Source of the DNA: a bacterium
Lineage (GTDB): Bacteria > Armatimonadota > Zipacnadia > Zipacnadales > UBA11051
Direction: 5' to 3'
Assembly: GCA_021372615.1 (NCBI GenBank)
Contig: JAJFUB010000054.1
Span: 1-43,181 of the forward strand
DNA length: 43,181 nt
Positions 16,430 to 39,400 of this stretch are shown here, in pieces. A model generated the notes under the pieces. The model did no database searches. It had not been told where the DNA came from and was given only the letters and a program-made list of their open reading frames with translations. Each line of letters starts with the position of its first letter. Position 1 is the stretch's first letter. The position numbers and the translations under genes were made by a program.

Positions 16430-16470
16430 GCCGTCACTGACGAGTGCCACTATCACACATGGGGAACGAT

Positions 16471-19400
16471 ATGAGAACCGTCTGCTTCGTTGCTTTGCTG
16501 CTGCTCGCGAGCTGTGCCGCCTTCGCCGAACCCCTCGTCCCTAACGCCGGCCTCGAGACCGGGACCGACAAGCCGGATGGCTGGTCGTGGCGCACGGGCG
16601 AAGGAGGCCTGGGGGAGTTCGAGTGGACCGCCCGGATGGCCCATACCGGCCAGAAGTCGTTCCGCATCAAGCGCGCGGGCGCCTCGGGCTACACGGCTCT
16701 CGATAGCGAGGCGATCGGCGTCACACCGGGCATGACCGTCCGCGTTGCTGCCTGGATCTACCCGGTCAAGCCGGTGCGGCGTGGCGTGTACTTCATGGTC
16801 ACCCAGCACAAGCCGGGGACGGACGCTGAGGACCTTCCCAATACCTTCGGCGTCACCACGGCCGCCTTCGTGCCGCAGGTCTGGCAGCAGGTCAGCGTCA
16901 AGCTGACCATCCGCGAGGGCATTGACCGCATCCGCCTGCACTGCATCCAGGCGTTTCTGCCCTCCGAGCTGTACTGGGATGACTTCACCGTCACCGAGGC
17001 CGGGGCCGAACCCCAGCCGCGCTACGAGCCGCCCACCAAGGAAGACGTGCCACCCCTGACGCCGGAGCTGGAGGCCACGGTAGCCAAGCGCCCCCGCGCC
17101 ACGGCCAGGGTCGAGATGCGCGGCGAGCGCCCGCGCCTCCTCGTGGACGGCAAGCCCACGCCCTTCGCCTGGTATGTCAGCGCCTTCGGCGGGCCGGGCT
17201 TCTTCAGCAACGCGCAGATCGGCGACTTCGCCAAGGTCGGCGTACACGTCTACCTCGTGCCGCTCGTCCTCGGCAACGGCCTATACGGCGCCAAGGGTCC
17301 GTGGCTGGGGAAAGACCAGTACGACTTCAGTGTCGTGGATGACCTCCTGTGGCGCGTGCTGCGCGTGGACCCGCAGGGCTACGTCATCTTCTACATGTGC
17401 TCCGACCCCTACCCGGCCTGGGGCGCCGAGAACCCCGACCATGTCACGCAGGATCAGAATGGCCAGAAGGCCATCGTGTGGATGCATCCCAAGCGCTGGG
17501 GCAACGACCCCAAGGAGGGCGAGCGCTTCGCCCCGAGCCTGGTGTCGCACAAGCTGCGCGACGATGTGTCGGCGACGCTGAAGCTCCTGGCCAAGCACGT
17601 CGAGAGCAGCGTCCCCGGCCGTGCGGTCATCGGCTACCACGTCGCCGGCTTCAACGACGGCCAGTGGTTCCAGTGGGCCAGCCTGAACCCGGCGGACCTG
17701 CACTTGGCCGACTACTGCCCCGGTGCGGAGGCAGCCTTCCGCGAGTGGCTCAGCCACCGCTACCACACCTCCCCGGAGGGTCCGATTGTGTGGAGCGAGG
17801 AGCCGTTCCGGAAGGCCTGGAACGACCCCAACGTCACGACCATGGATGCGCGGATACCGGGGGCGGACAAGCTGTGGGCGGACCGTGTCTTCGTGGACCC
17901 CGCGACCGAGCGCCAGGTCGCCGATTACCAGCGCTTCTACTCCGAGGGCGTGGCCGAGAACGTCATGGCCCTGGCGAGGGTGCTCAAGTCCGAGACCCGG
18001 CGCCCGATCATCTGCGGCACGTACTATGAGGACATCACCTGCAACTCCACCAACCACATCGCCCTCGGGCGCTTCCTGAATGACACGGCGATTGACTACC
18101 TGGCCGGCCCGGCCGCCTACTCCATCCGCATGGCCGGTTGCCAGGGCGCGGTGCGCAGTGTCTTCGCCTCGACCGAACTGCATGGCAAGATGTACCTGAC
18201 CGAACAGGACTGGCGCTCATGGCACTCGGTGCCCAACCAGCCCGAGCAGAACTTCTCGTGGGGGCGGGCCGAGACTGCCGACATCCACAATGCCATGGTG
18301 CGGCGCGAGTGCGGCATGATGCTCGCCTTCGGGCTGGGCACCTGGTGGTACGACATGTCCGGCGGATGGTTCCGCGACGACCAGATCATGGCCGGCATCG
18401 GTGAGGCTGTGCGGGCCTTCAACATGGAACTGGCCGACCGGGACCGCCCGCAAGCCGACCTGGCGGTCTTCGTCTCCGAGGAAAGCGACAGCTATATCCG
18501 CATGAGGTACGGCGGCCAGTATCGCCACGTGGGCATCGTCCAGCAGATCGAGGAGCTGAACACGGCGGGCGTACCGTACCGACTGTACCTGCAGTCGGAC
18601 CTGGGCCAGATGAAGCTCCCCAACCACAAGGCCTATCTGTTCCTGAACCCCTATGTCATTACGGACGCCCAGCGCGCAGCCATTGAGGGTCTCAAGCGCG
18701 ACGGCAAGCTCCTCGCGTTCGTCCACGCCCCGGGGATCATCGGTAGCGACGACCCCGCGAAGACGGCGGCGGAGATCACGGGGCTGAGGCTGACAGCCTT
18801 GGCCGGCGAGACGCCGGCACTGGGCGCGGAGGGGGGACAGGGCCAGGGCGGGGCGACGAACCAGGGCGGGACGCCGAACCAGGGCGGGGCGCCGAACCAG
18901 GGCGGGGTGTCGCCGCAGGCGACAGGGACCCCGCCGGCGAGCGGGACGAAGGGCCAGGGCGGGGCACAGGGCTCGGGCCCCGACTCAGGCGTAGTGCGGG
19001 CTTCCAGCCCGCAACCGGCGCCCGGGGCGGGCTCGAAGCCCGCACTACATCCCCTGCTCGCCGGCATGGAGGATGAGGTCATCATGTCCCCCGCCCCCCA
19101 GGCCAATGCCCTGCAAGTCGTGGACCCACAGGCCGTCCCGCTGACCACCTACGAGAGCAGCACGGCCGTCGGCTGCGCGGCACGGGACTTCGGCAAGTGG
19201 AAGAGCGTCTTCATCGGCAGCCCGTGGATCAGCGCGGGCTTCGCCCGCAACCTGGCGCAGTGGGCGGGTTGCTGGGTCGCCGCCGCGCCCGGCGATGCCG
19301 TCTATGCCAGCCAGCACTTCCTGACCATCCATGCGCTCTTCCCGGGCCACAAGGTGCTCCGACTCAAGCAGCCGGCGAAGGTGACGGACCTGACGACAGG

Positions 19401-19479
19401 CCGCGTTGTCGCGGCCCGCGCACAGACGGTCGAGGTGGACATGGAGCGCGGGCAGACGCGGTGGTTCCGGCTGGACTGA
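16471..19479 (+). CDS. Secreted GH42-like glycosidase with a repeat-built insert
   Basis: The 1002-residue protein has a signal peptide (MRTVCFVALLLLASC, cleavage near AFA-EP), a jelly-roll carbohydrate-binding domain at about 22-180 (PNAGLETG, LYWDDFTV) and a TIM barrel from about 205 that resembles beta-galactosidase-like clan GH-A enzymes. The candidate nucleophile is Glu578 in YLTEQDW. The acid/base position in GYHVAGFNDGQW reads Asn395-Asp396 rather than Asn-Glu, so activity is uncertain. GGGGA precedes the ATG at 16471; a GTG at 16444 would only add residues before the signal peptide. Residues about 777-860 are not domain sequence but translated repeats (18800-19048). Confidence 0.8.
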   Translation: MRTVCFVALLLLASCAAFAEPLVPNAGLETGTDKPDGWSWRTGEGGLGEFEWTARMAHTGQKSFRIKRAGASGYTALDSEAIGVTPGMTVRVAAWIYPVKPVRRGVYFMVTQHKPGTDAEDLPNTFGVTTAAFVPQVWQQVSVKLTIREGIDRIRLHCIQAFLPSELYWDDFTVTEAGAEPQPRYEPPTKEDVPPLTPELEATVAKRPRATARVEMRGERPRLLVDGKPTPFAWYVSAFGGPGFFSNAQIGDFAKVGVHVYLVPLVLGNGLYGAKGPWLGKDQYDFSVVDDLLWRVLRVDPQGYVIFYMCSDPYPAWGAENPDHVTQDQNGQKAIVWMHPKRWGNDPKEGERFAPSLVSHKLRDDVSATLKLLAKHVESSVPGRAVIGYHVAGFNDGQWFQWASLNPADLHLADYCPGAEAAFREWLSHRYHTSPEGPIVWSEEPFRKAWNDPNVTTMDARIPGADKLWADRVFVDPATERQVADYQRFYSEGVAENVMALARVLKSETRRPIICGTYYEDITCNSTNHIALGRFLNDTAIDYLAGPAAYSIRMAGCQGAVRSVFASTELHGKMYLTEQDWRSWHSVPNQPEQNFSWGRAETADIHNAMVRRECGMMLAFGLGTWWYDMSGGWFRDDQIMAGIGEAVRAFNMELADRDRPQADLAVFVSEESDSYIRMRYGGQYRHVGIVQQIEELNTAGVPYRLYLQSDLGQMKLPNHKAYLFLNPYVITDAQRAAIEGLKRDGKLLAFVHAPGIIGSDDPAKTAAEITGLRLTALAGETPALGAEGGQGQGGATNQGGTPNQGGAPNQGGVSPQATGTPPASGTKGQGGAQGSGPDSGVVRASSPQPAPGAGSKPALHPLLAGMEDEVIMSPAPQANALQVVDPQAVPLTTYESSTAVGCAARDFGKWKSVFIGSPWISAGFARNLAQWAGCWVAAAPGDAVYASQHFLTIHALFPGHKVLRLKQPAKVTDLTTGRVVAARAQTVEVDMERGQTRWFRLD
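18800..18823. repeat. Intragenic palindrome, family D copy 1
   Basis: Core GCCGGCG-AGA-CGCCGGC (18802-18818), read in frame as LAGETPAL near residues 777-784. The 24-base segment matches 37906-37929, inside an unrelated gene on the other strand, at 23 of 24 bases. Confidence 0.75.
18841..18912 (+). repeat. 18-bp tandem repeat, four units, in frame
   Basis: Units start at 18841, 18859, 18877 and 18895 and encode GQGGAT, NQGGTP, NQGGAP and NQGGVS. Degenerate GQGG sequence continues to about 18980. It is part of the insert in the GH42-like protein and would form a flexible Gly/Gln/Pro linker. Confidence 0.85.
18991..19048. repeat. Intragenic inverted pair of family B repeats (BIME-like)
   Basis: The left copy (18991-19013) has a GTAG head and stem GCGGGCT / AGCCCGC. 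The right copy (19027-19048) is inverted and ends CACTAC. They are read in frame (GTA GTG CGG ...) through residues 841-860 without a stop. The same family lies between genes at 12309-12394. Confidence 0.85.
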
Positions 19480-35204: not shown

Positions 35205-35273
35205 GTAGTGTGGGCGGCCTCGCCCGCACACGAACCACTGCCGTCCGTGGGCAGGCGAGGCCGCCTGCACTAC
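35205..35273. repeat. Inverted pair of family C GTAG-headed repeats (BIME-like)
   Basis: The left copy (35205-35230) has GTAG and the stem GGGCG-GCCT-CGCCC. The right copy (35251-35273, inverted) reads GTAG and CAGGCG-GCCT-CGCCTG on the minus strand. The stems carry compensating differences, so pairing is kept within each copy. A third copy lies at the window start. With family G it fills the 201-bp gap between ptb and the acetyltransferase gene. Confidence 0.85.
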
Positions 35274-36487: not shown

Positions 36488-39400
36488 CTACTTCTGGCGC
36501 GGCAGTTCGACGACCTGTCCGGCCTTCACCTGCAACGTGAGGGGCTGGCGTCCCGTGAACTGCAGCGTCACCTTGCCCCCACCGTCGTGGCCCACAATGA
36601 GCCAGCCACGATCCCAGTACCCGTACACGCACAGACTCAGCGGCCGGTCGGCCCACAGCTTGAGCAACTTGTCGGTATGCTGTGTGCACTTCACGAGCGA
36701 CACGAACCCGCCCTCGTCATGCTCGCCCTTGTAGGCCATCGCGCCGGTGAAAGTGCCGCCGGGGAAGCGGCAGGGCTTCGTCGGGTCGGGCGAGAGTTTG
36801 AGAGAGCCCAGACTCGTCTCCACCGAGACTCCGGTTGCGTCCGTCACCCACTGGGCCGATCCGCCGTAGGGCTGCGCCGGCGCCAGGATCGTGCCGAAGA
36901 TCGTGTCGGTGGCCTCGCGCCGCAGAATCTGCATCGGCATGAGCCTATCCAGGGCCGTGGTGATGCTCCGGCCGACGATGAGTTCCGTCGGCTCACCACC
37001 CAGGCTCGTGATCGTCAGGCCGCTTCTCTCGTCGCCCCACGTCGTGCTGCTCTGCTGGGCCGTGGCCGCCGCCCCCTGCGCCTGGTGGATGTGCTGATAG
37101 CCGCAGTTCTTGCCGAGAGGATCCGCCAGCGGCGTCAGCGGTGCCGAGGCCGACTTGAAGGGCGCGTCAATGTGTAGGGCGTAGTCGTAGACGTGCTTGT
37201 CGCGGCTCCGCACACGGTAGAAGTCCACGATCCGCCCGTCCACCAGTGCCACCGTCCGCGTCAGCTGGACGCCCTCGAAGACGGCGTCGCAGCTCGCCTG
37301 CGCGACCCGCAGAAACGGGTCGGCATGGAAGAACCCGAGCTTGCCCATGGCTCGCTTCTGGAAGCTGTCGCACGGCCACGTCTTGTCCGTATCGAGGCCG
37401 GGGTACTGGCTCCTGCCATCTACGGTGAGCGTGTTGTGGCTGATCGTGTGGGCAGTCCACTGGCCCTTCTCGGCGCTGTCATAGCCGCAGGAGCCGAAGT
37501 CCGGGAGGAGCTGCTTGCCGTTGTTCCAGACCGCGAGGCTGAGCTTGTCGGGGTGGTTGTGCCCACCGCCGTAGGGGCCGAAGGTCATGTTGACGGCCAA
37601 CCCCTCGGTGCTCGGGAGCTTGCCCGCGTAGTCGCCCTGGCGCAGCAGCGCCAAGCCGCTGGAGGGGAACAGGCTGCTGCCGTACTCGAGCACGCCATTG
37701 TTACAGAATCTGGCCCCGCTGTAGTCGAACTTGCCCGGGTTGGGCGGGCGCTCGTAGAGCAGGTCATCCAGATTCGGCCCGGCAGAGGAGGCGTCGGTCA
37801 TCACGACCGACTTCGGGCCGATGACGGCGGTGGGGGGGCGGGCGACCCAGTCGGTGAGCTTGCCGTCCACAGTGAGGCCCGAAGCGCGAGGGGCCACGAT
37901 CGCCCTGGCCGGCGGGACGCCGGCACTGGACAGCAGCAGCGTGCCACCCTCGGCCGAGTCGTAGCGGTCGTTCTGACAGGACCAGCAGACCATCTTCTCC
38001 TTGGTCGTGTTGCCACCGGTGCTGTCGCAGTCATACAGCACGAAGTCCGCAGTCAGCTTGCCGCCCTCGCGGGGCACGAAGGCCGTCCCCTGCTCGTCGC
38101 CCTGCGGGGCGAGTTCACTCAGCGGGATGGCCAACTCGAGCGCATAGCCCTCCGGCGTCTTCGTGACGACGTACTTGCCCGCGCTCACGCCCGCGTTGGC
38201 GAGACCGAAGCGGTTGAAGAGCGCGGCCACCGGGGGGACCTTGTCGAAGTCGCCGGGGCTGAGGCCATAGATGAAGTCATACGGCCCGCCCTGACCGTCG
38301 CGCCACTTGAGGCCCACCCACAGCGCATCCCCCTGCCACACGTCGCCGGGCTTGGTCCAACTGTTGCGCACGACCTGGTCGGTGATGTCGGCGGCGACAT
38401 ACAGGCGTTGGTCGTCCCAGGCCAGCCAGACCTTCGCTGCGGCATCCTTGGCCCCGAGCTTGGGGATGGTCGTCTGCCGACCCCGGTTGATGAGCCAGGC
38501 ATACTTGGGGTCGCGAGTGTGCTCCCAGGCCGCGCGGTAGGCGGCGTTGACCGAGAGCGGCCCGCGTCCGCTGTCGGCCACCACCGGCCACGTGAGGTCC
38601 GGGAACGTGTAGTAGAACGGGCCGTCGAACATGAGCTTCATGCTCTTGGGTCCGTTGTCGCCGTCGCCGACGCAGTAGTTGATGATGGGCTCGCGGTCGG
38701 TGTTGTAGTCATCCGGCACCGACAGCTTGTACAGGTCGAGGTTGCAGCGGGCGGCCGCCTGCAGCAGCGGGAACAGGGCGCTGATGACGAAGCTGTGGTA
38801 GCCCGCCGAGCGCTCCCAGAACAGGCCGTCATCCTGCACGTCGTGAGCCAGCAGGTGCTTGAGGCCATACGGGCCGTCGATCGCGTGCTCGACCATGTCA
38901 GCGTCTTGCAGCAACAGCCCCGTCAGTCCCACCGCCGAGTCGAACCACGCCTGGAAGTTGTAGCACTTGTAGTGCAAGTCGCCAGGGCGGTTGTCCTGCG
39001 GGTCGTGGTAGTCGCGTACCCAGAACAGCTCGGCGCCGGGTCGGAGCAGGTCGCGCTCGATCTGCGCGCGCTCCGCGGCGGTGAAGCATGGGCTCTCATA
39101 GGCGAGGTCATACGCGCACACGAGCGGCACGAACCACACGGCCTCATAGAGGCCGGACACGGTCTTGGTGATCTTCACGCGGCCACCGCGCGCGGGCAGC
39201 GTGGGGTACAGCTTCGCGTAACCGAGCAGCGCGTCATGGACCCACTGCGCGTAGCGCTCATCGCCGAGCAACTGGTAGTACAGGCCGACCTGCTGCAGCC
39301 GCGAGGTGACGGCGGACATCTCGTCGGTCACGCCGGTGGGGATGGTCGCGGGCTTGCTGACATACCCGTCCGCCGAGCTGCGCAGGGAGGCCAGCAGCTT

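Follow-up and report, generated by a model that had tools for sequence, protein, structure and literature searches.

Introduction

The closest described precedent for the locus analyzed here is a set of GTAG-tagged REPs lying inside genes, including those of tRNA synthetases, in clusters that encode 43-82 residues, which was published in 2013 (PMC3733652). That survey reports such repeats from Proteobacteria, Cyanobacteria, Chloroflexi, and the PVC superphylum, and its text does not mention the Armatimonadetes. Its REPs and those of the genome studied here have in common GTAG palindromes, head-to-head dimers, in-frame positions in unrelated genes, and RAYT genes flanked by REPs. The present case differs in that two REP families and a unique tandem array meet in one linker, and in that one of the tags is CCAG. 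REPINs (PMC3116915) are dispersed pairs of inverted REPs with a short, variable spacer, an arrangement shared by the family B pairs described below.

Two further systems share the intragenic position. The palindromic elements (RPEs) of Rickettsia lie in frame in many unrelated proteins, as do the repeats of this genome, and the comparison drawn in a first-pass annotation of the locus works well as an analogy. RPE-4 and RPE-6 bear a CGTC tag, and families of that type apparently have no dedicated transposase (PMC3733652). Here, by contrast, family B is tagged GTAG, family D carries CCAG at the foot of its stem, and a RAYT gene flanked by D is present. Assignment of the repeats to the RPEs was rejected on the CGTC tag, and REP/REPIN with a RAYT transposase is the better name. 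The enterobacterial RU repeats (PMC2759123) are likewise small mobile repeats with open frames inside annotated genes, and it has been proposed that new peptides arise from them; their units measure 103-168 bp, compared with 22 bp, or 58 bp for a pair, here.

Results

The host glycosidase and its insert

The analyzed window is a stretch of 43,181 nucleotides representing contig 54 of an incomplete 6.41-Mb assembly. The locus comprises the following features:

16471-19479, plus strand: GH42-like glycosidase gene with a signal peptide (translation, PF02449 match, best Foldseek hits)
18799-19050, plus strand: lineage-specific insert of about 78 residues, replacing a linker of 12-14 residues (homologue alignments)
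18802-18823, minus strand: family D REP, CCAGTGCCGGCGTCTCGCCGGC, with the stem GCCGGCG/CGCCGGC (copy number)
18843-18914, plus strand: in-frame 18-bp tandem array just past the tag end of D, unit CCAGGGCGGGGCGCCGAA, reading NQGGxx (TRF)
18915-18990, plus strand: degenerate G-rich segment, partly like the 18-bp unit
18991-19048: family B REPIN, or head-to-head dimer, with its GTAG tags outward (18991-19012, plus strand; 19027-19048, minus strand)

The reading frame of the glycosidase is open from 16441 to 19479, including across 18799-19050, and the insert is thus read through without a stop, as had been claimed. A GTG start is listed at 16444, and the ATG at 16471 is the likelier one (MRTVCFVALLLLASCAAFA). 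By profile, the protein belongs only weakly to the GH42 glycosidases, as its match to PF02449 (Glyco_hydro_42) scores 22.5 bits, barely above the cut-off of 21. The best Foldseek matches of the structure model are GH42 beta-galactosidases, with modest TM-scores of 0.52 or less; the quality of the model is moderate (mean pLDDT 61.9, 11 sequences), and a search by sequence found no related solved structure. Named relatives of the protein come nearly all from Armatimonadetes/Armatimonadota or Candidatus Zipacnadia, and one is labelled Victivallales, so the bacterium itself most likely belongs to the Armatimonadota. According to the model, the left flank of the insert closes an alpha/beta domain, rather than being part of the beta-sandwich proposed earlier, and a C-terminal beta domain follows the insert.

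The D palindrome, the 18-bp units, and the inverted B pair all lie where the first-pass annotation had placed them. In the open frame, D reads AGETPAL and the B pair VVRASSP...GSKPAL. The stretch 18915-18990 is mostly degenerate and G-rich, and 18941-18978 within it is 74% identical to a 38-nt reference copy. Since D, the array, and the B pair fill 155 of the 252 bp, the earlier description of the insert as built wholly from repeats is somewhat too strong. The insert is modelled as a single coil block (pLDDT 24-30) between structured segments, and is predicted to be disordered and devoid of secondary structure. Its codon-model coding score is -0.01, compared with 0.37-0.39 in the flanks, and GC at the second codon position reaches 71%, compared with 47% in the rest of the gene. 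By composition, the insert looks like non-coding DNA placed in a coding frame.

We compared homologues from Armatimonadota relatives, which are 48-74% identical, and one further homologue at 34%, in two partly overlapping alignment sets, one of which was drawn from named GTDB contigs. In every homologue covering the region, about 12-14 residues separate the conserved "ITG" segment from "HPLL"; the present protein has about 78 there. In the closest homologue (L098/L039, 71-74%) the linker reads LKPLAQAPEIRELPRATHPLL. This alignment had been named beforehand as a possible refutation, and no homologue carries the insert; of 61 genomes compared, this one alone has B and D. The insert is lineage-specific and consists largely of dispersed, copied repeats that its homologues lack, in agreement with the proposal that it is copied DNA rather than a product of domain evolution. 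D begins right after LA, and B ends on the first base of the H codon. The ancestral 12-residue linker has left no recognizable remnant, which points to insertion combined with loss or later divergence rather than to a clean insertion. The insert occurs only here and abuts conserved sequence on both sides, which supports the view that it is very probably a scar of REP activity in the linker of the GH42-like glycosidase.

An alternative is a misjoin through repeats, since the assembly is fragmented (171 contigs, contamination 2.93%) and repeats can break or misjoin contigs. However, residues 9-788 (74%) and 867-971 (68%) match a single homologue, from genome G017, in one reading frame, the central array is unique in the genome, and similar composites recur in other genes, all of which makes an assembly artefact highly improbable. 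Alternatively, a functional linker, for instance a flexible spacer or a surface-binding stretch, may have been gained under selection, with the REP origin being incidental. Low-complexity linkers are common in secreted enzymes, and the frame has been kept; set against this, D and B belong to dispersed families that also occur between genes, the coding score is near background, second-position GC is shifted as described above, no secondary structure is predicted, and no homologue has a comparable segment. We regard such a selected gain as very unlikely; most likely, the inserted peptide is tolerated and has no selected function.

Repeat families B and D

Family B (GTAGTGCGGGCTTCCAGCCCGC) is conserved along 22 bp, with unrelated flanks, and each of its four tag positions carries 1.64-1.92 bits. 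The genome contains 110 copies at up to 2 mismatches, and the reversed pattern, used as a control, has 0. Family B, a short palindrome with a terminal GTAG that is dispersed in high copy, is a GTAG-tagged REP. The pair in the glycosidase is a REPIN, or head-to-head dimer: its 29-nt arms are 86% complementary, and a single DNA strand of the pair folds at -31.8 kcal/mol, compared with -15.1 for shuffled sequences (z -7.7). About two dozen other B clusters have the same plus-minus order, with tags outward and a short, variable spacer.

Family D has 38 copies genome-wide at up to 1 mismatch and likewise 0 for the reversed pattern; for both families, this excess excludes chance at the level of the genome. 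D alone folds modestly better than shuffles (z -2.0), and the case for it therefore rests on copy number. Most copies carry CCAG (or TCAG) in place of the GTAG tag and retain only its AG. A GTAG version of D matches 47 places in the genome, counting up to 3 mismatches. For one REP system, published work found strong enrichment on CT-carrying substrates at only the final two positions of the tag (PMC8266576). No exact copy of B, and no copy of D with up to 1 mismatch, occurs in 60 related genomes. D has a stop codon in none of its six frames, and B in one, where it arises from the GTAG tag. The earlier statement that the repeat families recur elsewhere in the genome holds for D and B; the 18-bp unit is restricted to this locus.

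Outside the glycosidase, two D-related features are relevant here:

37908-37929, minus strand: the window's other D copy, read as SSAGVPPA within the long minus-strand ORF that ends at 36488
L108 2267-2740 (contig 146), minus strand: RAYT transposase gene (NF047646, PF01797)

The gene on contig 146 (73787-74191) scores 88.7 bits with NF047646 (REP-associated tyrosine transposase; cut-off 80) and 30 bits with PF01797 (cut-off 23). It lies between D copies at 73520, 73644, and 73731 on the plus strand and at 74280 and 74428 on the minus strand. D copies thus stand on both sides of the transposase gene, those on one side inverted relative to those on the other, and family D is a RAYT-associated REP. 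Six loci in the genome match the RAYT model, two of them above its cut-off. For family B, none of the seven Y1_Tnp genes in this incomplete assembly adjoins a copy, the nearest being about 7.7 kb away, and B is assigned to none of them.

Several other palindromes were observed. A REP of another family, GTAG-CCACGGGC, lies just beyond the RAYT/D cluster (L108 2021-2950, contig 146). Two more Y1_Tnp genes are flanked by their own palindromes, of the GTAG-CCGTGGGC type at L109 1896-2579 (contig 56) and of the GTAGGA-GCGCCAGCTTCC type at L007 1319-2029 (contig 34), which suggests that several pairs of REP and transposase coexist in this genome. The window itself has GTAG-led, palindrome-like sequences at 35245-35273 on the minus strand (GTAGTGCAGGCGGCCTCGCCTGC) and at 1-19, at the contig end (GTAGCGCGGGCGGCCTCGC). 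Each possibly represents another REP family, and the latter possibly also the cause of the contig break.

The 18-bp array and arrays near REPs

The 18-bp array is the top-scoring tandem array in the window. TRF delimits it to 18843-18907, with 3.6 copies and a 93% match, and a more degenerate unit extends to 18914. The unit was found at no other locus in the genome, so the array is local and was ruled out as a dispersed family. Its period equals six codons.

A tandem array lies no more than 60 bp away from 19 of 36 D copies and from 23 of 97 B copies, compared with 26 of 600 random pieces, although copies in one cluster are not independent. For singleton D copies, arrays were found on the tag side in 4 of 11 cases and on the other side in 0, compared with 3 of 600 random flanks; singleton B copies show little signal (2 and 1 of 37). 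Array enrichment near REPs is established only for D. A consistent 5' side for the arrays could not be established from the independent singletons (4 versus 0 for D, 2 versus 1 for B).

Array periods inside called genes are divisible by three in 8 of 8 cases, compared with 5-7 of 21 outside (p 0.0003-0.0015), in a post hoc test with small counts and with genes called partly by their open frames. This pattern fits selection for frame and provides indirect evidence that these frames are translated. It may be that REPs do more than insert passively and actively lengthen protein linkers by seeding in-frame tandem duplication, a suggestion to which we assign a low probability. At the tag end of a REP, nicking by the RAYT or replication stalled by the hairpin would then repeatedly make short arrays, and within genes only arrays with a period that is a multiple of three would be retained; both steps share that low probability. 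For the glycosidase, such seeding is tentatively favoured over landing in a repeat-rich linker because all homologues have a short linker.

REPs inside other genes

We surveyed 102 B and 36 D copies and classed each by the coding signal on both sides, for which 128 long ORFs of the genome served to train a codon model; gene calls were computational, and spurious ones may remain. Fifteen of about 69 classifiable B events lie in an open gene frame (about 22%), as do 11 of 21 D events, this insert included (about half), whereas REPINs were described from extragenic space (PMC3116915). Random positions fall in genes in 61.5% of cases, a value drawn from this window only; against it, B is strongly depleted in genes and D not detectably so.

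About 25 genes carry in-frame REPs, and the earlier proposal that the linker is a special landing site is accordingly not supported. All five open frames of B are used, with readings VVRASSPQ, GLEARTT, SAGFQPA, AGWKPAL, and RAGSPHY; D is read as SAGVSPA, AGETPALG, and PASRRP. The hosts include an AMP-binding enzyme, a prolyl-tRNA synthetase type protein, ArgJ, a TIM-barrel enzyme, several glycosidases, and a nitroreductase with ferredoxin motifs, and several of the repeats fall within Pfam domain spans.

The outcome varies by gene, as shown by a large gain in ArgJ and a gain of only 3-4 residues in the prolyl-tRNA synthetase type protein. In the ArgJ-like protein (L095 867-2216, plus strand), the alignment to a solved homologue in the PDB breaks for 58 query residues, opposite 6 in the homologue. 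The extra stretch (residues about 161-218) is an insert of roughly 50 residues, encoded by a 27-bp in-frame array that ends in a D REP. The prolyl-tRNA synthetase type protein (L080 688-2541, plus strand) carries D at residues 272-279, in a variable linker before the editing domain; as it is just 3-4 residues longer there than its homologues, replacement or drift is possible. In the AMP-binding enzyme, a B pair occupies a variable linker with little or no added length relative to FadD5, and with a 13-residue gap relative to another homologue (PDB alignments).

These genes bear on whether slippage may first have turned the glycosidase linker into a repeat-rich, disordered segment, with the array arising first and the REPs landing later. 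Another GH42-like protein (L081) carries D in a linker that is rich in Thr and Pro and belongs to a common type (ATTTPSTATTTP), and a survival bias toward disordered linkers would agree with the predicted disorder of the insert. Against this order of events, the glycosidase homologues have a short, non-repetitive linker and hence no visible repeat-rich landing pad, and the 27-bp unit of ArgJ resembles the left half of D, which suggests that this ArgJ array grew out of a REP. We consider array-first growth possible but doubtful.

Discussion

The reading that we prefer, a scar of REP activity, would involve the following steps. A D REP and a B REPIN would have entered the short linker between the alpha/beta and C-terminal beta domains; the positions of D and B in the linker are observed, and transposition is their presumed route. 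The 18-bp array beside D would have grown locally, by tandem duplication or slippage, as suggested by its unique unit and its period of six codons. The enzyme would have retained both of its ends, gaining a stretch that is predicted to be disordered, because the added length kept the frame, D is free of stops, B has a stop in one frame only, and no structure is predicted for the linker. The same process would also have acted in about two dozen other genes.

The glycosidase clearly exemplifies a route to new protein sequence that is known but has been little studied. It is a further case of a known type, since intragenic REPs encoding up to 82 residues have already been published (PMC3733652). 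New here are the observations that D copies often adjoin tandem arrays and that in-gene array periods are divisible by three, as well as the occurrence of a case in a phylum unmentioned in the text of that survey, with a RAYT identified for one of the two families. REPs are named "extragenic", yet called genes hold about one-fifth (B) to one-half (D) of the events surveyed here, and some of these genes are normally essential or biosynthetic. The transposase identified for one family and the insert-free homologues together make the path from mobile repeat to protein segment traceable. If it also holds in other genomes, the link between REPs and in-frame arrays would suggest a concrete mechanism for the growth of linkers in bacterial proteins.
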